Below are positions 1 through 12,140 of a DNA stretch of 12,140 bases, one piece after another. The notes below the pieces were generated by a model. The model saw nothing but the letters and a program-made list of their open reading frames with translations, made no database searches and had not been told where the DNA came from. Each line of letters begins with the position of its first letter. Positions within the stretch are counted from its first letter, which is position 1. This stretch comes from Cohaesibacteraceae bacterium. Lineage in GTDB: Bacteria > Pseudomonadota > Alphaproteobacteria > Rhizobiales > Cohaesibacteraceae. The position numbers and the translations under genes were made by a program. The DNA lies in contig JAESRR010000010.1 of the NCBI GenBank assembly GCA_016764535.1, forward strand, positions 18,812-30,951. The letters run 5' to 3'.

Positions 1-671
1 CAGGCATATCCGCGCCCCATCTTTTGGACATGCAATTGTCCCTGCTCCAAATAGACCTGGTTAACAGCTGTTATTTCCAATTCCCCGCGCGCTGATGGCT
101 TTATTGAGCGAGCTATATCGACAACGTTTTCATCATAAAAGTACAAGCCAGTCACGGCCCAGTTTGATAAATACTCTTTTGGTTTCTCGACAAGTTCAAC
201 AGGGCGGCCATCTTCATCAAATTTACATATTCCAAAGCGGCCTGGATCCTGAACATAATAAGCGATATTGCATGCACCGGCCTCCATCGCTGAAATATCG
301 GTCAATAATTCAGAAAATCCAGATCCAAAATAGATATTATCCCCTAAAATCAGAGAACAGTGTGAGCCATTTAGAAAATCTTCTGCAATATGAAAAGCTT
401 GTGCAATCCCTTCGGGTTTCGCTTGAACTTCGTACTCAAGCTGTATACCCCATTGGCTGCCATCGCCTAAAACCTTTTGGAATAGCGGTTGATCAGCAAG
501 AGTTGTAATGACAAGAATTTCCCGTATCCCAGCCAGCATTAATGTAGTCAGCGGATAATAGATCATCGGCTTGTCGTAAACCGGCAATAGCTGTTTACTA
601 ACAGGAACGGTCAATGGCCAAAGGCGGCTTCCTGATCCGCCAGCCAATATGATCCCTTTTCTTTTTTTCAA
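1..671 (-). CDS. rfbA: Glucose-1-phosphate thymidylyltransferase, 3' end outside the window
   Basis: This enzyme condenses glucose-1-phosphate with dTTP to give dTDP-glucose, the entry step of dTDP-deoxysugar synthesis in the cytoplasm. About 223 of the usual ~290 residues are present. The N-terminal nucleotidyltransferase signature is clear: [16 protein letters not shown] near residues 6-21, followed by [17 protein letters not shown] with the conserved Lys at 26. A metal/sugar-binding LGDNIYFG lies near 109-116 and a VEKPKEY motif near 163. The start is a TTG at 671. No ATG is available between it and the in-frame TAA at 687-689, and the family N-terminus aligns exactly there; the ribosome-binding site is weak. 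The gene starts 40 bases after the final stop of rfbB, so the two are probably co-transcribed. Reading continues through base 1 with no stop. Identity is secure; the exact start is less so. Confidence 0.95.
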
Positions 672-711
672 AATTAATACTCTGCTTTAAACTGATGGAA
701 TTAAACAACAA

Positions 712-1803
712 CTATCCATAATGTTGTTCGATCCAACTTTGATGCTCACCGACCTGTATTGCACGCCACCAATGTTCATTTTGCAAATACCAATCCAGTG
801 TCAAATTAATACCCGTCGTAAAATCTACACCGGGTTCGAAACCCAGTTCAACTGATATTTTGGCTGCATTAATAGCTTAACGCCGATCATGCCCCGGACG
901 ATCTTTAACAAACTGAATGAGAGATTCAGATTTCAACCTGTTTGCCACTGAACATTTAGGAAAGTTACTCAGTAACTCCGGACTTGATTCAAGCCTGGCG
1001 TCAAGCAAATTACAAATTAGTTTTACAAGATCAATATTTGTAATCTCATTGTCACCACCAACATTGTAGGTTTCACCAGACCGGCCTTTGTCCAATACAA
1101 CCGCAATTGCTCTACAATGATCCTCAACATAAAGCCAATCTCTCACATTCATACCAGTGCCATAGATCGGGAGTGGTTTGCCATCAAGAGCATTCGTTAT
1201 TACCAGGGGAATCAATTTTTCAGGAAAGTGAAATGGTCCATAATTATTGGAACAATTGGTAATTGTGACCGGCAATCCATAAGTAATGTTATACGCTCTT
1301 ACCAAATGATCACTTGATGCTTTTGTAGCTGCATAGGGTGAACGTGGAGCATAAGGCGTTTTTTCAGTAAATGCCGGGTCTTCTACTCCCAAATCGCCGT
1401 ATACTTCATCAGTGGAAATATGGTGATACTTCTTATTCGAGAAATCCTCTTTCCAGGAATTATATGCCACAGACAGAAGGGTATGAGTTCCCAATATATT
1501 TGTCTGCAGAAAATCATCGGGCGAAGCAATGGATCGATCAACATGACTTTCAGCAGCAAAGTTAATTACCGTGTCTATTGCATGGTCTGAAAATATATCC
1601 GATACCAGCTCTTTATTGCAGATATCGCCCCGGATAAATGTAATTTTATTATCATCAATCAAGTGTTTGATACTTGATATAGTACCTGCGTAAGTAAGAG
1701 CGTCCAGAATGGTCAATTGATCATCTTTATTATTATGATGCCAAAAGTTCACAAAATTTGAACCAATGAACCCCGCTCCTCCGGTGATTAAAATTATCCG
1801 CAT
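712..1803 (-). pseudogene. rfbB: dTDP-glucose 4,6-dehydratase interrupted by an in-frame TAA
   Basis: RfbB/RmlB converts dTDP-glucose to dTDP-4-keto-6-deoxyglucose using bound NAD. The open part (877-1803, 308 residues) has the Rossmann motif GGAGFIG (8-14), the catalytic STDEVYG (130-136, Thr131-Asp132-Glu133) and YAATK (157-161). It stops at TAA 877-879, immediately after RPGHDRR. In this family the next residue is Tyr (RPGHDRRYAID). Reading past the stop in the same frame gives 54 more family-typical codons, beginning AINAAKISVELGFEP and including LDWYLQNEHWW, to TAG at 712-714. The repaired length of 363 matches the family's 350-360. A single base change from TAT or TAC explains the stop. 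The truncated protein loses the C-terminal part, which helps form the nucleotide-sugar site, so I expect it to be inactive; a sequencing error is possible. The ATG lies 3 bases after the upstream SDR stop. Confidence 0.9.
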
Positions 1804-1806
1804 TAC

Positions 1807-2769
1807 CTAGCTGATTTCCCGAATGGAATTGGCTTGTTTCAACAAGGAAATAGTTTCACCAACGCCGCGCCTCAAATCGCCTGCAAAGGTAAAACCTCTG
1901 GATTTGAATCGTTCACAACTTACTTCATACGATAATTGGTTCATAATTTTATTATCAACAAAACCAACTTCAAGATCCGGGACAAACTCCCGAATGGCAT
2001 TAACAATATCACAAACCGTCAAATTATGAGTTAGGACGTTGTACAGTCTTCCGTCAAACAAATCGTTGCGGATAATAAAAGCCAATGCACGAGAGGCATC
2101 AAACAAATCCAGATATGGTCGCTTTTGATTGTAAGCAGTACTCCAAACTGATATCGGCACTCCCATGGCAGCCTGCCAACAAAATTTATTGACCGCAGTG
2201 TGAAATCGCATGCCGGGTGATGCGCCAAAAATTGTGCCAAATCGACATGACACCCCCTTCAGGCCTTTACTCACGCACAAATCAGCAACCAGATTTTCTT
2301 CTTTTAACTTGGTCACAGCATAGGGGCTTTGTGGCTGAAGTTCTTCCGGGGAGCAATCCTCTGCTACTACTTCATTTTGCGTCCCGTAAACACTCGTCGA
2401 AGACAGAGCAATCATCCGGACACCAGTTTCAGCACATGCCAAAGCTACTTTTGATGTCGATTGAAAATTATTGGCTTCAATTTCCTCAGCCCTACCAAAA
2501 CTTCCCGCGGCATCCGTAATTGCAGCCAGATGTATAACGACATATGCACCTTGAAACAAAGCCTTCAAATCAGTCTTGGTTATGTCTGCTTCGATAAATT
2601 TATATTGAGCTATTGTCGGTAAACTAAACAATGAAGCAAACCGTTGTGTCATCATGTTATCAATCAGCACAATTTCAGAGCCTGGAAATTGTACGGCTAA
2701 ATCACGAATAACATAGGATCCAATGTGCCCGACGGCTCCTGTAACAATAACTTTCATTGAATGGTTCAT
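1807..2769 (-). CDS. Extended SDR-type NAD-dependent epimerase/dehydratase (sugar nucleotide)
   Basis: This is a cytoplasmic extended short-chain dehydrogenase/reductase acting on a nucleotide sugar. The 320 residues contain a Gly-rich NAD motif TGAVGHIG (10-17), the acidic ribose-binding LIDN near 35-38, LAA at 81-83, the SSTSVYG strand (123-129) and the catalytic Tyr150-x-x-x-Lys154 pair. A C-terminal NQLSYEVS stretch resembles SDRs from lipopolysaccharide clusters. The substrate cannot be read from the sequence; 4-epimerase, dehydratase or a reductase filling the role of the missing RmlD are all possible. The start at 2769 has a weak GGA just upstream. An ATG at 2757 (MKVIVTG) is an alternative that fits the family N-terminus equally well. 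The stop is 3 bases before rfbB, so the two are probably translated together. Confidence 0.85.
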   Translation of the reverse strand: MNHSMKVIVTGAVGHIGSYVIRDLAVQFPGSEIVLIDNMMTQRFASLFSLPTIAQYKFIEADITKTDLKALFQGAYVVIHLAAITDAAGSFGRAEEIEANNFQSTSKVALACAETGVRMIALSSTSVYGTQNEVVAEDCSPEELQPQSPYAVTKLKEENLVADLCVSKGLKGVSCRFGTIFGASPGMRFHTAVNKFCWQAAMGVPISVWSTAYNQKRPYLDLFDASRALAFIIRNDLFDGRLYNVLTHNLTVCDIVNAIREFVPDLEVGFVDNKIMNQLSYEVSCERFKSRGFTFAGDLRRGVGETISLLKQANSIREIS

Positions 2770-2963
2770 TTTTCCAAATTTAGTGTTGGATAATCAAAAT
2801 TTGATGGTCGTTAGCCATTTAGAGGAAATCGGCACACCAATTCTCACACACGCCAGAAGACTATCACAATTAAATGGGCTGAAAGCTGACCAAAAAATAA
2901 ATCCGACTTCAACAATATCTTCATACCGGAAGATAGAATTACAGTTTTAGAGCGTGGCAGCAA
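2770..2963. other. 194-bp gap inside the minus-strand gene train
   Basis: This is the only long spacer in the left operon; every other junction is 40 bases or less. I see no convincing coding sequence, no hairpin followed by a T-run and no good -35/-10 pair on either strand. A stop-free stretch of about 50 codons on the minus strand lacks a good start and any recognisable family motif. The gap could hold an internal promoter or be the scar of a lost gene; neither can be shown from the sequence. Confidence 0.4.
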
Positions 2964-3584
2964 TTATTTCTTTGTCGCTGTTAAACCTAACATGTGATCC
3001 CGATCCCCTTTCCACTGGAAATGTTCAATTTTATTCACTTCAAGACCCAAATAGTTGCAAACAGCGCGAAGTTTTTTTGATGTATAACAATTAGTATGGA
3101 ATTGACCGGCACCATTCTGACTGCCGTAGATTGTTGCCGCCAAATAACCCCACCTGTTTGTTGGCTTATATGTATAAGTACCGAACCAGTGTTGCTCTCG
3201 TATGGCTTCTTCGTCATCCCGATAGAAGCCCTTCCAATCATCCTCGGCTGCCAACCATTGTTTCGCAGTTTTTTCAAAATCTACAGTAGAGAGATAAAGT
3301 GTTCCACCTGGTTTCAAGACACGAATAATTTCATTAAAAAACTTCGGTTCTTCAACAAATGACAGATGTTCGATCAATGCTTCCGAGCGAATTTCATCAA
3401 CTGAATTATCCTCGAAAGGAAGGTCGAATAAATTGTATTGGAGAACCACCAAATCATTCTCAAATGGTTGGTTTGGATATCGTTCCCGAATTTGATCAAG
3501 AGTGTCCATATCTACGTTGATGTAATTACGTAAAGGGCGCCCGCCACATCCCAGATTTAATCGAATAGGAGATTGTTCAGTCAT
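2964..3584 (-). CDS. Class I SAM-dependent methyltransferase
   Basis: This is a small (206-residue) cytoplasmic methyltransferase of the Methyltransf_11 type. Motif I is LNLGCGGRP near residues 9-17, followed by the acidic YINVDMD that binds the SAM ribose. Further on are DLPFEDNSVDEIRSEALIEHL and the post-motif strand IRVLKPGGTLYLSTVD. The ATG at 3584 is chosen because AAGGA lies at 3591-3595 with a 6-base spacer. It also gives an 8-base overlap with the FdtA-like gene upstream. A TTG at 3602 in the same frame would add six residues and has no better ribosome site. The position between a ketoisomerase and an SDR suggests sugar methylation or another late modification, but the substrate is inferred only from context. 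Confidence 0.85.
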   Translation of the reverse strand: MTEQSPIRLNLGCGGRPLRNYINVDMDTLDQIRERYPNQPFENDLVVLQYNLFDLPFEDNSVDEIRSEALIEHLSFVEEPKFFNEIIRVLKPGGTLYLSTVDFEKTAKQWLAAEDDWKGFYRDDEEAIREQHWFGTYTYKPTNRWGYLAATIYGSQNGAGQFHTNCYTSKKLRAVCNYLGLEVNKIEHFQWKGDRDHMLGLTATKK

Positions 3585-4017
3585 TTGGATTCCTTGATGC
3601 AATCATCAATGTATTGTTTTTTCGAAAATCAATGAATTTCGAATAATCACGAAGATAGTCTTCCTCATCGTACTTTTTATTACACAGTACAGTGAGTATG
3701 GAATTCTCTTTTTTATAAATTTGTTGCGCCCAAATTCCCGGAGGTATGAACAACCCCTGATCCGAACTATCCAGGATATACGTTTTTTCTTGCTCCCCAT
3801 CATCACAGAGAACTTCTATGACCCCGGTTGTACAGTGCAAAAATTGACTACAATGACGGTGAGCATGATTACCCCGAATGGCACCGTTGTCAGCAAGAAC
3901 AGTAAACACCCTGGCTATCGAGAATGGTATATTCCCACTTTCCATCACGACAAGCTCACCATTATCTCGAGAGTGGTGAGGCAAGGAAATAAGAATTACG
4001 GAATCGATGAAGTTCAT
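3577..4017 (-). CDS. fdtA: dTDP-4-keto-6-deoxyglucose 3,4-ketoisomerase, FdtA/QdtA (WxcM-like cupin)
   Basis: Proteins of this cupin family move the keto group of dTDP-4-keto-6-deoxyglucose from C4 to C3, making the substrate for a 3-aminotransferase. The 146 residues match the usual single-domain length. The signature is RGNHAHRHCSQFL near 48-60, with His51 and His53 in the cupin pocket. It is followed by GVIEVLCDDG, LFIPPGIWAQ and the C-terminal YDEEDYLRDYSKF. Whether the product is the galacto (FdtA) or gluco (QdtA) isomer cannot be told from sequence, so the symbol is provisional. The ATG at 4017 lies 12 bases after the preceding stop, with a poor ribosome site. The usual partners, FdtB/QdtB aminotransferase and an N-acyltransferase, are absent from the window. 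They may lie to the left of it. Confidence 0.88.
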   Translation of the reverse strand: MNFIDSVILISLPHHSRDNGELVVMESGNIPFSIARVFTVLADNGAIRGNHAHRHCSQFLHCTTGVIEVLCDDGEQEKTYILDSSDQGLFIPPGIWAQQIYKKENSILTVLCNKKYDEEDYLRDYSKFIDFRKNNTLMIASRNPND

Positions 4018-4029
4018 GCCGGATAGTTA

Positions 4030-4929
4030 CTAACAAGAATAAAGTGCATGATGAAAGTATGGAAACATTAACATAGGCATATCATTAACAAGGTGCCATT
4101 CTCTTCCATCAGGCTTATAGGCTTTTAAACAATCATTTCGTGCCATCTGAAGGGCGCGATCATCAAAAATATCAATTACATCCTGACAACGACCCAATTC
4201 GAATACATCCAACAATTTATCAGGAGATAGCTCAGGCATACCGATTGTCTCCGGCAGATATTTTCCAACTGCATTTTTACTATAAAAGAAATCAGAATTA
4301 TTAATAACGCGTTCCATATACCCATCTATAACACTCATAGGCATTTCTTGGAAACTGTCGATATTTATTGCCAGATCTGCGGACAGTGATGACTGCTGTT
4401 TATGGTCATCACTGGTTATAAACTGTATGCGGTCAAAGTGTTCAGGCGCAACTTTCTTTAGGTATGCTGAACTCAATGCAAGCATTGGTTCGAGATCTAT
4501 AATCGAGTACTTCTCTAAATTGGGCAGTAAAGTCAAAAAACTGTGACAAGTCCTGCCAAAACCCGCACCAATTTCAACGACATGTTTTATATCACTTACA
4601 AATAAGGGTTTTGCATTCTCCAAAAATTCGAACTCTTCAATCGCTGCAAAATAGTCAGAGTTAATTTCGCACCCACCGAATTTTACGCTTATTGGTTCAC
4701 CCTGGTCCACACAACTAATTTTATTATATTTTTCTAAAAACATTGCAGACTGTGCTTGAGCCATCGTGAATAGTAAAAATTTCAAATAGCGAGTTGATTT
4801 TTCATATGGGTCCCAGGCAACAAATTTATTTGTCGAGCCAGGCATTCTAAAATCAGATATGAATTGATCATTTATATTTGAAAAAGTACCGCTGGTTAAG
4901 ACATTCCACAATTTGGATCCATTGCTCAC
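4030..4929 (-). CDS. Putative sugar O-methyltransferase, NanM-like
   Basis: The protein resembles the putative sugar O-methyltransferase family found in polysaccharide clusters (often labelled methyltran_NanM). It has a SAM-binding motif VVEIGAGFGRTCHSFL in its first half, then KYSIIDLEPMLALSSAYL, the family-typical DLAINIDSFQEMP, and a C-terminal region ending in HHALYSC. A likely job is O-methylation of a sugar residue, possibly capping the chain, but this is inference. The GTG at 4929 is chosen because it forms a GTGA four-base overlap with the stop of the upstream SDR, a common translational coupling arrangement; this gives 299 residues. A TTG at 4953 in the same frame would give 307 residues with a 28-base overlap. 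The family N-terminus is too variable to decide between them. Confidence 0.8.
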   Translation of the reverse strand: MSNGSKLWNVLTSGTFSNINDQFISDFRMPGSTNKFVAWDPYEKSTRYLKFLLFTMAQAQSAMFLEKYNKISCVDQGEPISVKFGGCEINSDYFAAIEEFEFLENAKPLFVSDIKHVVEIGAGFGRTCHSFLTLLPNLEKYSIIDLEPMLALSSAYLKKVAPEHFDRIQFITSDDHKQQSSLSADLAINIDSFQEMPMSVIDGYMERVINNSDFFYSKNAVGKYLPETIGMPELSPDKLLDVFELGRCQDVIDIFDDRALQMARNDCLKAYKPDGREWHLVNDMPMLMFPYFHHALYSC

Positions 4930-5903
4930 GATTTTACACTCACGTGAAAACAATTAGTCATTTTTCTCACTCCCAACGACAAAGAGACCTCTGGGCACCA
5001 CTTAAATGCTGCATACATGGCATCTATATTTCCAATAAAATCCCTGTGTTCAATTGGATCAGTTTTGTCTGGCCAAGGAAAACACGATACCTTAACTCTA
5101 TTCCCGGTCAATTCGACCGCGCTAACCGCAACCAATTCGAACGCTTCTTTTAATGTATGCCCGATGCCACTTGCTACATTGAAAACTTGGCCGGCATTAC
5201 TATCGTATGCACCCGAAAGTAAAAATGCCTCGATGACATCATCTATATAAATATAGTCACGCACATAGTTTCCATCACCATATACATGCAGATCCTGACC
5301 ACTTAAAGCTATTTTTGATACCCTGTTAAGCACTCCGCGATCTTTAGCTGAACTGACCGATGGGCTTGGCCCATATACATTTGCAAGACGTAATGAAATG
5401 CTATTGATTATTCCATGACAAGAGGCCAAAGCCAATTGTTGCTCGGCGAAATATTTATGTAAATCGTAAATTGTTATCGGGTTTGCCAGATTTGTTTCCG
5501 CAACTGGTAAATCTTTAGTGAGACCATATATTGTTGCCGTTGAGGCAAGTACCACCCGAGGGCAGTTGTCTGACTGTTGAGCCGCAGCAATTAAATGGTT
5601 TATAGGTAACAGAGTAGATTTTAAACTTTCTGAAGGGTCGCTTGCGGATGCATAAACACTTGAATTTCCTGCCAAATAAAAAATAATATTGGCCTGATGG
5701 ACAATTTTTTGCCAACAATCTGGGTCTGTTATATCAGCCTGCAAATCAATCATTCCAGGTTTCGGATCCAGCCTGCTTCTGCAGACACGGATGACCTTTT
5801 CTGAGTGACGGCTCAAGGCCTCTATTAATGAACTACCTATATAGCCATTTGCGCCGATAACGGCAACAGTTTTCCCTTTATATAGATTAACAGCATTGAT
5901 CAT
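4926..5903 (-). CDS. NAD-dependent sugar-nucleotide epimerase/dehydratase (extended SDR)
   Basis: This 325-residue cytoplasmic SDR has IGANGYIGSSL near 16-26 for NAD binding, an Asp at 56 in DLQADITD, the STATIYG strand (121-127) and the catalytic Tyr146-x-x-x-Lys150 in YDLHKYFAE. A VRDYIYIDDV segment of the UDP-glucose 4-epimerase type lies near 210-220. It is therefore galE-like in overall form, but the nucleotide sugar is not determined. The ATG at 5903 starts 5 bases after the rfbC stop, with only a weak ribosome site. Its end overlaps the next gene by four bases. It differs clearly in sequence from the other SDR at 1807-2769, so the pair looks like two separate activities rather than a recent duplication. 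Confidence 0.87.
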   Translation of the reverse strand: MINAVNLYKGKTVAVIGANGYIGSSLIEALSRHSEKVIRVCRSRLDPKPGMIDLQADITDPDCWQKIVHQANIIFYLAGNSSVYASASDPSESLKSTLLPINHLIAAAQQSDNCPRVVLASTATIYGLTKDLPVAETNLANPITIYDLHKYFAEQQLALASCHGIINSISLRLANVYGPSPSVSSAKDRGVLNRVSKIALSGQDLHVYGDGNYVRDYIYIDDVIEAFLLSGAYDSNAGQVFNVASGIGHTLKEAFELVAVSAVELTGNRVKVSCFPWPDKTDPIEHRDFIGNIDAMYAAFKWCPEVSLSLGVRKMTNCFHVSVKS

Positions 5904-5908
5904 TGGTG

Positions 5909-6475
5909 TTATTTTTCAACTATAGAATTGTGCGGCAACTGCTCAGTTGACAAATTTTTCAACCGACCAAATGTATTGTCCCTTTTCGAAATCCTGGGAT
6001 TAATGACAGGCCAATTAATTCCAATATCCGGATCATTCCACAATAAACCAGCTTCATCAGAAGGATCAAACAATCTACTGCACTTATAATGCAGATCAAC
6101 ACGATCACTCAATACGCAGAATCCATGGGCAAATCCAGGAGCCATGTACAACTGCCTTGGCCCATCATCACATAATTCAACGCTATAACATTTTCCAAAA
6201 GTTGAAGATTCGAGCCTCAGATCCACACAAACATCAAATATTCTTCCAGACATTACTGTTACAATTTGCGCCTGGGGACGGAGTATTTGGAAATGCAATC
6301 CTCTCAACACTCCCTTTATTGAGTGAGACTGATTATCTTGCACAAATTCATCCGAAATTCCCATCTTTTGGTACCTATCACGTTGATACGTCTCCAAAAA
6401 AAAGCCACGCTCATCGTCAAAACAATCTGGTTCGATGACAAGAAGGCCAGCAAGTGGGGTTTTTACAATTTGCAT
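5909..6475 (-). CDS. rfbC: dTDP-4-dehydrorhamnose 3,5-epimerase family protein
   Basis: RfbC/RmlC epimerises C3 and C5 of dTDP-4-keto-6-deoxyglucose on the way to dTDP-L-rhamnose. Length (188) and motifs fit: FDDERGFFLETY (19-30), FVQDNQSHS (44-52), GVLRGLHFQ (55-63) with catalytic His61, GRIFDVCVDLR (77-87), APGFAHGF (112-119) and Tyr130 in LHYK. The partner Asp in the SKRD segment near 163-166 is also present. One oddity is that the conserved Lys of the usual QxKLV segment is Gln70 here (PQAQIV). The fold should be intact, but activity or specificity might differ from a standard RmlC. The ATG at 6475 has AGG about 5 bases upstream. It follows the GT2 gene after 25 bases. RmlD, the following rhamnose enzyme, is not in the window. 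Confidence 0.93.
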   Translation of the reverse strand: MQIVKTPLAGLLVIEPDCFDDERGFFLETYQRDRYQKMGISDEFVQDNQSHSIKGVLRGLHFQILRPQAQIVTVMSGRIFDVCVDLRLESSTFGKCYSVELCDDGPRQLYMAPGFAHGFCVLSDRVDLHYKCSRLFDPSDEAGLLWNDPDIGINWPVINPRISKRDNTFGRLKNLSTEQLPHNSIVEK

Positions 6476-6500
6476 GGCACCTAAAGATCTTACTTAACAG

Positions 6501-7511
6501 TTATTTTACCAATTTTTGCCGAACCAAATTTTTACAATATAAAACACTCTGATTCACAGAAACCCTAATTACATAAATAGAAGTACCAAACCAATATTTT
6601 TTTTCCAGTCGCGGAAGATTCACTCTCAATTGATACGAGCCAAACTTGATCAGTGACCAAATCAAACCATCTGATTTGTTCCGCAAAAGCACTATCAATT
6701 CATTGTCAATAAACCATCGTATCAACAACGCTGAATAATATCCAAAATTTTCTTTTTTTGTTTTTAATAAACATACTCTTTCCAAATGATTCAGAAAATC
6801 CACTTCCGCGGAAGTAAATGCATCGAATTCTGCTGAAGAAGCAGACAATGAATTTTGGTGCGTTCGTAGAAAAACCTGTTGTGAATTCAGCCAGATAATA
6901 TCTCCGCTCTGCGTCAGCAATATTGGTAATATAGTGTCGCTATATGGCCCATACCCATTTCCCAACAAGATCATACCCGACATCTCTTTTAGAGCTTTTG
7001 TGCTTATTAATCCATAGCAACCAACCAATGTAATTTTTCTATTCAGATAGTTCACAAGGAACCGGTCCTGGGTATATATTTCAACAGAATAATTCTCTAA
7101 CGGACCATAAAACGCATCCAGAATCTGACACCCGGATGCAAAACCTGTAAACACCGCAGATACACAAATATCAGGAACTTTTTCTACTGCATCAATCATG
7201 TTTTTCAAAAAATCTGGATGAAAAACATCATCATCACACAACCAGCTGAACCACTCACTTACCGTTTGATTAAGCACATAATTCAGATTATCAATTTCAC
7301 CCATATTCTCTTCATTGTTGATTATAGTAATACGCGGGTCTGGTTCTATTTCCAAACTCTGAAATGTAACCGGAATGGCAATATAGTCATTGCCAATAAT
7401 CAATCGAAAATTTTTATATGTTTGACGTAAAATCGAATGCACAGCCTCTTTCAGCATATCGGGTCGATTATAGGTTACAAGGCCAATCGTAACATAAGGC
7501 TCGTCGTTCAT
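6501..7511 (-). CDS. Family 2 glycosyltransferase
   Basis: This is a 336-residue GT-A-fold transferase, probably adding one sugar of the repeat unit on a lipid carrier at the inner face of the membrane. The N-terminal strand VTIGLVTYNRPDMLKEAV lies near 7-24. The metal/nucleotide-binding Asp triplet is in SWLCDDDVFHPDFL (Asp93-95). The C-terminal third is basic and aromatic, without a clear membrane span. The ATG at 7511 is chosen because AAGGA stands about 7 bases upstream and the GT2 fold starts right after it. The frame stays open for 54 more codons upstream to 7673, but that stretch lies antisense to the divergent GT2 gene and has no GT2 features. This is the first gene of the minus-strand train. 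Donor and acceptor sugars are unknown. Confidence 0.88.
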   Translation of the reverse strand: MNDEPYVTIGLVTYNRPDMLKEAVHSILRQTYKNFRLIIGNDYIAIPVTFQSLEIEPDPRITIINNEENMGEIDNLNYVLNQTVSEWFSWLCDDDVFHPDFLKNMIDAVEKVPDICVSAVFTGFASGCQILDAFYGPLENYSVEIYTQDRFLVNYLNRKITLVGCYGLISTKALKEMSGMILLGNGYGPYSDTILPILLTQSGDIIWLNSQQVFLRTHQNSLSASSAEFDAFTSAEVDFLNHLERVCLLKTKKENFGYYSALLIRWFIDNELIVLLRNKSDGLIWSLIKFGSYQLRVNLPRLEKKYWFGTSIYVIRVSVNQSVLYCKNLVRQKLVK

Positions 7512-7626
7512 TTTGTATCCTTGCAAACCGAAACTATTGAATATATGCACTCGACATCCAGGATGAGAAGCAGATAGAAATGCATCAATATTGGTCATTT
7601 TTATTCGCATAATGTATGAGAATAGA
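7512..7626. promoter_or_regulatory. Divergent spacer between two glycosyltransferase genes
   Basis: This 115-bp spacer separates the two divergent transcription units and must hold the start signals of at least the minus-strand train unless transcription enters from outside. It is AT-rich. I find only weak -10-like strings (for example TATATT on the minus strand near 7540 and CATAAT at 7608-7613 on the plus strand), without good -35 partners. No operator-like palindrome stands out. The regulatory role is inferred from layout alone. Confidence 0.35.
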
Positions 7627-8484
7627 ATGAAAACCACGTCCCCTCTTCTAACCATTGCCCTGCCCGTCTTCAATGGTGGAAATACCCTGCAAGTGGCAAT
7701 TCAATCAATTCTCGATCAAACATTCCAGGATTGGGAATTACTGGTAATTGACGACGGCTCCAGTGACGGAATGGTGGAAAAACTTGATTTCTCACTTGAC
7801 CACAGAATTCGTATTATTAGCGACGGCACAAACAAAGGACTATCCTACAGACTAAATCAGGCGGTCAACGTAGCGAGGGGCATTTATTTCGCGCGAATGG
7901 ACCATGACGACATCAGCCATCCCCAGCGGTTTGAAAAGCAAATTACCTATCTACAATCCCGTGAGGACATAGATTTACTCGGAACATACTGCATCACACT
8001 AAATGAACATTCACAAATTACGGGAAGATTACCCCTCTCCAAAACACACAAAAACATCTGCAAAAGACCCTGGTTAGGCTTTTATATACCCCATCCCACA
8101 TGGTGCGGGAAAACGGAATGGTTTCGACAGAATAAGTACAAACAAAATCCGGCTCCATATTGCTGCGAAGATCAGGAACTACTTTTAAGAACGCATACAC
8201 ATAGCAAATTTGAAGTACTACCTTTGTATTTACTAGCCTATCGGAAAACAAACAGATTCAATTTTCGAAGGGTGTTTAAAACAAGATGGGCAAATTTGAA
8301 GTTTAAAACCAAATTTTTTAGTAAAAATCGACAATATGACAAACTACTACTTGTACTGGTATTATTTATAACAATCATTCCATATGATGGATTGATTAAA
8401 TTATTTGGCCGAAGTCGCCTGGCTAATTTAAATAATCAACCCAGTTTAATCAAATGGGAATTCATTATTAGGAATCTTGTTTGA
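7627..8484 (+). CDS. Family 2 glycosyltransferase
   Basis: This 285-residue GT2 protein has the N-terminal strand LLTIALPVFNGGNTLQVAI near 7-25. ELLVIDDGSSDG (37-48) binds the nucleotide, ARMDHDDISHPQRF (89-102) carries the DxD metal site, and CEDQELLLR holds the expected acidic residues of the acceptor side. The last ~60 residues include a hydrophobic run (LLLVLVLFITIIPYDG) that may touch the membrane. The ATG at 7627 has GAG about 7 bases upstream. In-frame starts at 7612 (ATG) and 7591 (TTG) are possible but lack a ribosome site. It is divergent from the GT2 at 6501-7511; the two share only family-level features. Sugar specificity cannot be read. Confidence 0.9.
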   Translation: MKTTSPLLTIALPVFNGGNTLQVAIQSILDQTFQDWELLVIDDGSSDGMVEKLDFSLDHRIRIISDGTNKGLSYRLNQAVNVARGIYFARMDHDDISHPQRFEKQITYLQSREDIDLLGTYCITLNEHSQITGRLPLSKTHKNICKRPWLGFYIPHPTWCGKTEWFRQNKYKQNPAPYCCEDQELLLRTHTHSKFEVLPLYLLAYRKTNRFNFRRVFKTRWANLKFKTKFFSKNRQYDKLLLVLVLFITIIPYDGLIKLFGRSRLANLNNQPSLIKWEFIIRNLV

Positions 8485-10082: not shown

Positions 10083-10208
10083 CTGCGGTTGCGTGCGCTT
10101 GAAGACGAGAACGGTAAGTTGAAGAAGCTGCTTACCGAGCAAATGCTGGACAATGCAATGCTCAGAGATATCAATTCAAAAAATGGTGACGCCCGTCGTA
10201 AGGCGTAA
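10083..10208 (+). pseudogene. IS3-type orfA, C-terminal remnant
   Basis: The translation LLRLRALEDENGKLKKLL followed by TEQMLDNAMLRDINSK is the C-terminal leucine-zipper region of an IS3-type OrfA. The helix-turn-helix N-terminus is absent, since an in-frame TGA lies at 10068-10070. Family proteins usually end SKKW and stop. Here the A-run has six bases instead of the seven needed for that reading, so the frame continues to GDARRKA and stops at 10206-10208. This inferred one-base loss also puts orfB in the +1 rather than the expected -1 frame. Confidence 0.75.
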
Positions 10209-10941
10209 AGCTGCGGCTCGGTTGATGGAGACCTATCAAGTGAGCCAACGTCGGGCGTATGATGTGTTGCAAGTTGATCGGTCATCGATGCGATATCAGT
10301 CGCGCCGGGGTGATGATACTGAACCGCGGGATGCCATCAAGCAGGTTTCGCGTGCGAGACGGCGGTTTGGTTATCGTCGTATCCACGTGATGGTCGCACG
10401 GGAAGGGTTTGTTGTGAACCAGGAAGCCAATGGTGTTGCCGGACGGTCCCAATCAATGTTGGAGCCTGGATTTCGTCTCCGATGCGTTGCCAGACGGCCG
10501 CCGATTTCGGGTTTTGACAGATATCGATGACTTTAGTCGCGAGAACCTGGTGCTTGCGGCGGATACTTCATTATCTAGTCTGCGTGTTGCACGCGAGTTG
10601 GATCGGATCGTAGCTGAACGAGGGATGCCAAAACAATTGTGTCGGATAATGGCACCGAATTCACGAGTATGGTAATCCTGAAATGGGTGCAGGAAACGGG
10701 GATTGATTGGCATTATATTGCCCCCGCAAAGCCGCAGCAGAATGGATTCATTGAGAGCTTCAATGGAAAACTCAGGGATGAATGCCTGAACGAAACGCTG
10801 TTTACTACATTGGACGATGCCCGAGACACGCTGGAAAAATGGCAAGAAGATTACAACTGGTGCAGACCACATTCAGCTTTGGGTAACATGACGCCCATGG
10901 AATTTTTGCAAGGAATGGCTATGGACAAAATGGCCGCATAA
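10183..10941 (+). pseudogene. IS3-type orfB (DDE transposase), broken into three frames
   Basis: Piece one (10183 onward) reads MVTPVVRRKAAARLMETY and then RRFGYRRIHVMVAREGFVVNQE. Piece two, in another frame from about 10430, reads VLPDGPNQCWSLDFVSDAL and continues to AERGMPK. Piece three (from 10639) reads [29 protein letters not shown] and ends at TAA 10939-10941. The catalytic Asp (codon 10469), Asp (10645) and Glu (10753) are all present, with 35 residues between the last two, the DD(35)E spacing of IS3 transposases. Between pieces one and two roughly 30 residues usually found after VNQ are missing, and the frame shift implies a deletion length that is 2 modulo 3. Between pieces two and three one A is missing in CCAAAACAATTG. 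No functional transposase can be made. Confidence 0.85.
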
Positions 10942-11933: not shown

Positions 11934-12140
11934 ACTGCACTGCGAGGTGTCATCAAGCGGGTTTCGCGCGCGCGACGGCAGTTTAGTTATCGTCGTGTCC
12001 ACGTGATGGTTACACGGGAAGGGTTTGTTGTGAACCAGGAAGCCTCTGGTGTCGCCGGACGGTCCCAACCAATGTTGGAGCCTGGATTTCGTCTCCGATG
12101 CGTTGACAGACGGCCACCGATTTCGAGTTTTGACAGTTAT
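11934..12140 (+). mobile_element. IS3-family fragment, copy B (orfB middle part, continues past the window)
   Basis: Bases 11934-12140 align without gaps to 10318-10524 of copy A at an offset of 1616. By hand I count about 21 mismatches in 207 bases. It reads RRQFSYRRVHVMVTREGF, then VVNQE, and after the same internal deletion near 12039-12050 changes frame to PDGPNQCWSLDFVSDAL with the first catalytic Asp. orfA and the start of orfB are missing on the left, so this copy is also 5' truncated. Its right part lies outside the window. Confidence 0.85.

Follow-up and report, generated by a model that had tools for sequence, protein, structure and literature searches.

The sugar locus

The window analyzed here, a 12,140-nucleotide stretch of a Cohaesibacteraceae genome, lies in contig C199 (30,951 bases) of a draft assembly of 3.86 Mb in 302 contigs that is 87.31% complete. 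A search for 16S in the genome gave none; its RpoB fits chain 7ye1, from Caulobacter, best (1679.5 bits, with 1296.6 for the runner-up), which points to a probable alphaproteobacterium. The window carries a minus-strand run of sugar genes. From right to left, these encode a family 2 glycosyltransferase (6501..7673; PF00535), the 3,5-epimerase RfbC/RmlC (5909..6475; TIGR01221, 210.8 bits, cut-off 155.75), an SDR sugar epimerase/dehydratase (4926..5903; PF01370, PF16363), a NanM-type putative sugar O-methyltransferase (4030..4953; TIGR04371, 87.9 bits, cut-off 44), an FdtA-like 3,4-ketoisomerase (3577..4017; PF05523, 134.2 bits), an SAM methyltransferase (2964..3602; PF08241), an SDR sugar epimerase/reductase assigned by profile matches (1807..2769, directly upstream of rfbB), RfbB, and the glucose-1-phosphate thymidylyltransferase RfbA/RmlA. 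The last of these genes is cut by the window start (3..671); the whole rfbA occupies C199:18607-19482, contains one N, and scores 440.9 bits, over its cut-off. Past the window, C199 continues with a C-methyltransferase gene (PF08484) and a DegT-type aminotransferase gene. Promoter and terminator scans of positions 600-7800, the latter covering inverted repeats, performed no better than on shuffled sequence.

The TIGR01221 and PF05523 matches bear out the RfbC and FdtA-like enzyme named in the initial annotation, and both genes belong to the same gene run as rfbB. We take the FdtA-like 3,4-ketoisomerase to use the RfbB product. For RfbC, use of the RfbB product is described in passages of PMC3438125. 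None of the eight RmlD matches in the source genome exceeded the cut-off. Judging from the FdtA-like, aminotransferase, and C-methyltransferase genes in the vicinity, the locus would seem to serve the making of an amino or branched deoxysugar, not of plain L-rhamnose.

The G+C content of C199 is 36-44%, against 47.5% in a sample of the assembly; that of contig C191 is 44-51% over 20 kb. An insertion sequence (IS) whose rve-type transposase is split over several open frames lies at window positions 10153-10941, and a second IS part, 90% identical, at 11934-12140, the contig end, where it fits the start of C191. One IS is divided between the two contigs: part of it lies at the right end of C199 and part at the left end of C191, with order and strand in agreement. 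We considered C199 as a stray contig and rejected the idea, since the shared IS parts would tie it to the same genome.

An in-frame stop in rfbB

The frame for RfbB/RmlB (dTDP-glucose 4,6-dehydratase) is read on the minus strand and stays open for 308 codons from position 1803 (880..1803), up to a TAA at 879-877. After the TAA, the same frame runs on for 54 further RfbB codons (876-715) to the original stop codon, a TAG read in the sequence at 714-712. The open reading frame at 877..1803 (minus strand) encodes 308 amino acids with the C-terminal end RPGHDRR. Searched alone, the 308-residue piece matched TIGR01181 with 423.5 bits over model positions 2-280 (cut-off 365.1), and the 54-residue piece matched the same model with 36.4 bits over positions 282-321, as well as NF007490 (44.5 bits) and NF007582 (40.6 bits). 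The stop therefore occupies the single model position between the two pieces, and by these scores the homology on either side of it is far beyond chance. A whole-genome TIGR01181 search that passed over the stop gave rfbB 476.5 bits. All 119 relatives have Tyr where the frame has its TAA, and all 119 share the Arg at the preceding position. These results confirm the initial reading of an in-frame TAA at the Tyr of the GHDRRY motif.

The NAD motif TGGAGFIG and the catalytic STDE...YAATK, read in translation, are both intact in the 308-codon part. The catalytic pattern, [ST]DE...Yx3K, was taken from a table in PMC8987622, which in the passages concerned prints the two domains in reverse arrangement. 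The gene thus exceeds the TIGR01181 cut-off even without its last part and has both motifs, marking it as an RmlB by ancestry alongside the solved structures 1bxk and 1g1a; the aligned chains of those structures have 355 and 361 residues, whereas the window's frame is cut at residue 308. With the TAA after codon 308, the complete C-terminal substrate-binding part that a working enzyme has in one chain is missing, and the gene shows what is expected of a nonsense pseudogene, one in-frame stop flanked by homologous sequence.

A match at 1e-90 is present in 211 of the 397 genomes in the order. The window's rfbB is the only one of the 150 matches listed in the order to have an inner stop, and the other 149 reach model position 319 at least; weaker matches, two of which ended early, lie outside these 150. 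One apparently short rfbB in a relative (G010) was rejected as such: its alignment stops at model position 298, but the frame continues past that point and has the motif where expected.

Predicted consequences of the truncation

Invariant residues in the lost part, in an alignment of 30 rows, are Y309, K315, G331, T335, and W338. In the predicted structure of an intact relative (mean pLDDT 92.1), the segment corresponding to the lost part contains four helices (314-320, 328-341, 343-351, and 353-362). After the Tyr, the chain goes on for 40 residues or more in 114 of the 119 relatives and for 33-35 in four; the remaining one, with 11, is marked as partial by its source. Loss of RfbB activity is likely, judging from this alignment and model.

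We propose the following course of events. Translation would end after 308 residues, and the product would keep its NAD-binding and catalytic motifs but lack the conserved Tyr together with the final four helices of the C-terminal, substrate-binding part. The truncated RfbB would probably be inactive or fail to fold correctly. The dTDP-glucose that RfbA supplies would then not become dTDP-4-keto-6-deoxyglucose, leaving RfbC and the FdtA-like branch starved of the RfbB product. So understood, the allele would be a strain-level loss of function, neither a switch nor a recoding.

Age of the stop

We fitted last-part identity against first-part identity over 741 pairs of 39 relatives; long drift after the stop would put the identity of the remainder below that predicted from the first part. 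The window's 54-codon remainder instead lies 0.043 above the fitted line (0.68 SD), exceeding the value of 35 of the 39 relatives, and so shows no measurable decay. The absence of an additional stop in the remainder is a weaker sign of recency, because only 27 of the 486 possible single changes there would create one. On the evidence of the sequence, the stop is either very recent or not real. The residual of +0.043 and the two-piece TIGR01181 matches agree with the earlier view that the downstream part is undecayed and the change recent.

A real allele or a consensus error

We consider it probable that the TAA arose by one very recent nonsense change in the one rfbB located in this draft genome, that it is real in the strain from which the reads of the contig came, and that it costs that strain the function of rfbB. 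An alternative that we take seriously, while judging it unlikely, is that the TAA is a wrong consensus base in a mixed-strain draft assembly and that the gene is intact in the organism. The undecayed downstream codons would suit such an error, as would the absence of inner stops from the other 149 matches. Against it, an identical 308-residue RfbB product heads a protein cluster and is listed on a 9,700-base contig rather than on C199, which makes a one-off assembler slip less likely; the 9,700-base contig may, however, derive from the same reads as C199, in which case it is not independent.

The adjoining SDR bears on the same question from the other side. A 316-residue protein 100% identical to it over 99% of its span is listed on two contigs, the longest of 40,623 bases, whereas the truncated RfbB is listed only on the 9,700-base contig, in a cluster that has a second member. 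The 40,623-base contig may carry a different RfbB, namely that second member, and this would favor a consensus error.

Doubtful bases are given as N in this assembly, but the stop has no N, which speaks against an error. The window contains no N, against 611 in a 230,403-base sample of the assembly (20 stretches). Among the isolated Ns inside frames of at least 200 codons (n = 408), the third codon position accounts for 288, the first for 83, and the second for 37; outside such frames the sample has another 42 isolated Ns. The mostly third-position Ns have the pattern of strain differences, as if these had been masked. Contigs dotted with single Ns are, for example, L130, L129, L113, and L151, and positions 8001-16000 of C191 (L155) hold 216 Ns.

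C199 itself carries four Ns, at C199:18811, 18446, 18303, and 15388 (codons TGN, GNA, NTG, and NAC). They fall in rfbA, the C-methyltransferase gene, and a gene at C199:15040-16218, and C199:18811 is one base to the left of the window. Three of them (TGN, GNA, and NTG) stand 877, 1242, and 1385 bases from the stop. For these three codons, the number of silent changes among the six pairs of alternatives is 1, 0, and 1, respectively, unlike the mostly silent Ns elsewhere. Some base calls near the stop are thus uncertain and, unlike those in the rest of the assembly, mostly not silent, a point in favor of an error.

Inner stops are rare in the assembly, which argues that base errors creating stops are rare as well. 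None was found in 121 ABC_tran matches in the source genome (nor in 89 in a control genome of a relative, G001), in the one rpoB match, or in the eight rmlD-like matches, although such counts are blind to frameshifts and so measure the assembly error rate only in part. A TAG in one of three rmlA-like matches (contig C110) was rejected as a second inner stop, being the natural end of a 344-residue gene. At C44:2849-3303, an ABC_tran match is in two pieces (model positions 1-84 and 95-137) with different open-frame lengths, possibly from a frameshift.

Same-frame pairs of open pieces number 20 in the 230,403 sampled bases plus C199. Apart from rfbB and one IS pair, which has no start codon, there are 18 such pairs. 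In 15 of them, one of the first nine codons past the stop is a start codon, as with neighboring genes; in the remaining three, the start codon comes at offsets 11, 12, and 16. In the rfbB remainder, the first start codon is codon 25, so re-initiation would not rescue RfbB.

Tolerance, a second copy, or switching

Instead of abolishing RfbB, the stop could be real but harmless, with the TAA read through or the 308-residue protein active enough. The catalytic motifs do precede the stop (by the pattern from the passages of PMC8987622), and the conservation of the 54 codons looks like that of sequence still in use. The initial annotation had raised readthrough, and our results do not support it: none of the 30 tRNA loci in the tRNA set of this 87% complete, and to that extent incomplete, genome has a TAA-reading anticodon, and 11 of the 27 other genes on C199 have TAA as their natural stop. 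These observations equally speak against a recoded or suppressed stop. An active 308-residue protein would have to dispense with the invariant residues and the four predicted helices of the lost part, and with an extension present at 40 residues or more in nearly all relatives; re-initiation, with its late start codon, would be of no help. We hold a harmless stop to be improbable. It is about as improbable that the cell goes on making dTDP-4-keto-6-deoxyglucose, either by useful readthrough without a suppressor tRNA or with a working 308-residue core, although the conserved 54 codons would be compatible with this.

A second rfbB had also been suggested as a source of tolerance. The TIGR01181 search of the source genome, 87.31% complete, gave 10 matches with one over the cut-off; the nine others were rejected as second copies, being other sugar SDRs that score below it. 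The search thus found no second rfbB in the assembled part of the genome. A copy in the missing part of the genome could still supply the activity, and two matches are listed in 15 of the 211 carrier genomes in the order (E 1e-90 or better), a lower bound since at most five candidates were scored per genome. The share of carriers with two copies, about 7%, multiplied by the 13% of sequence missing gives a chance of only roughly 1%, and we regard a hidden second copy as very improbable.

Switching of polysaccharide loci is known in general, and an IS copy is part of the sugar locus that contains rfbB. ON/OFF or phase variation of the polysaccharide with rfbB as its switch, a possibility voiced at the outset, is nevertheless highly improbable and finds no support here: the change is a point substitution, no homopolymer of at least five bases lies within 30 bases of the stop, no repeat tract lies at the site (a tandem scan gave one hit, a TC run of 6 bases lying some 45 bases upstream of the stop), and the window lacks the ambiguity marks that a mixed ON/OFF population might give.

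Related cases and meaning

If the stop is the recent nonsense change that we favor, the window is a snapshot of one surface-sugar branch being lost in one strain, before the remainder of the gene decays. A strain carrying this allele alone should then lack the locus's dTDP-deoxysugars in its polysaccharide. A nonsense allele of rfbB is an ordinary kind of event. For mixed-strain draft genomes in general, the case means that read checks are needed before gene loss is called.

A parallel comes from a genome of the same family (G017, 99% complete), where rfbB, clustered with rfbA and rfbC, is broken as well. It is split over two frames, with the break after about model position 256, so that the lesion is a frameshift and not an in-frame stop. 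The rfbC and rfbA pieces beside it (L160, G017:C19:415700-418200) apparently change frame too. That cluster represents either a dead dTDP-sugar pathway or indel errors, and the pathway may thus have been lost elsewhere in the family.

A broader precedent is the genome decay of Aliivibrio salmonicida, for which passages of PMC2627896 give over 300 disrupted genes. The point change to a stop in a conserved frame and the nearby IS copies resemble what those passages describe; here, however, one gene is hit, and the families that we searched hold no further inner stop. The passages concerned of PMC2627896 and PMC3438125 report no premature stop in rmlB.

A scan of genome contigs kept 80 named loci with a best-segment identity of 50-60%, all excluded from the counts above. 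RfbB and SDR proteins are listed on contigs of matching length, 7,514 bases (P0002/P0124), 39,790 bases (P0003/P0135), and 51,631 bases (P0005/P0229). This suggests that rfbB keeps its SDR neighbor in distant relatives, whose RfbB has 364 residues.
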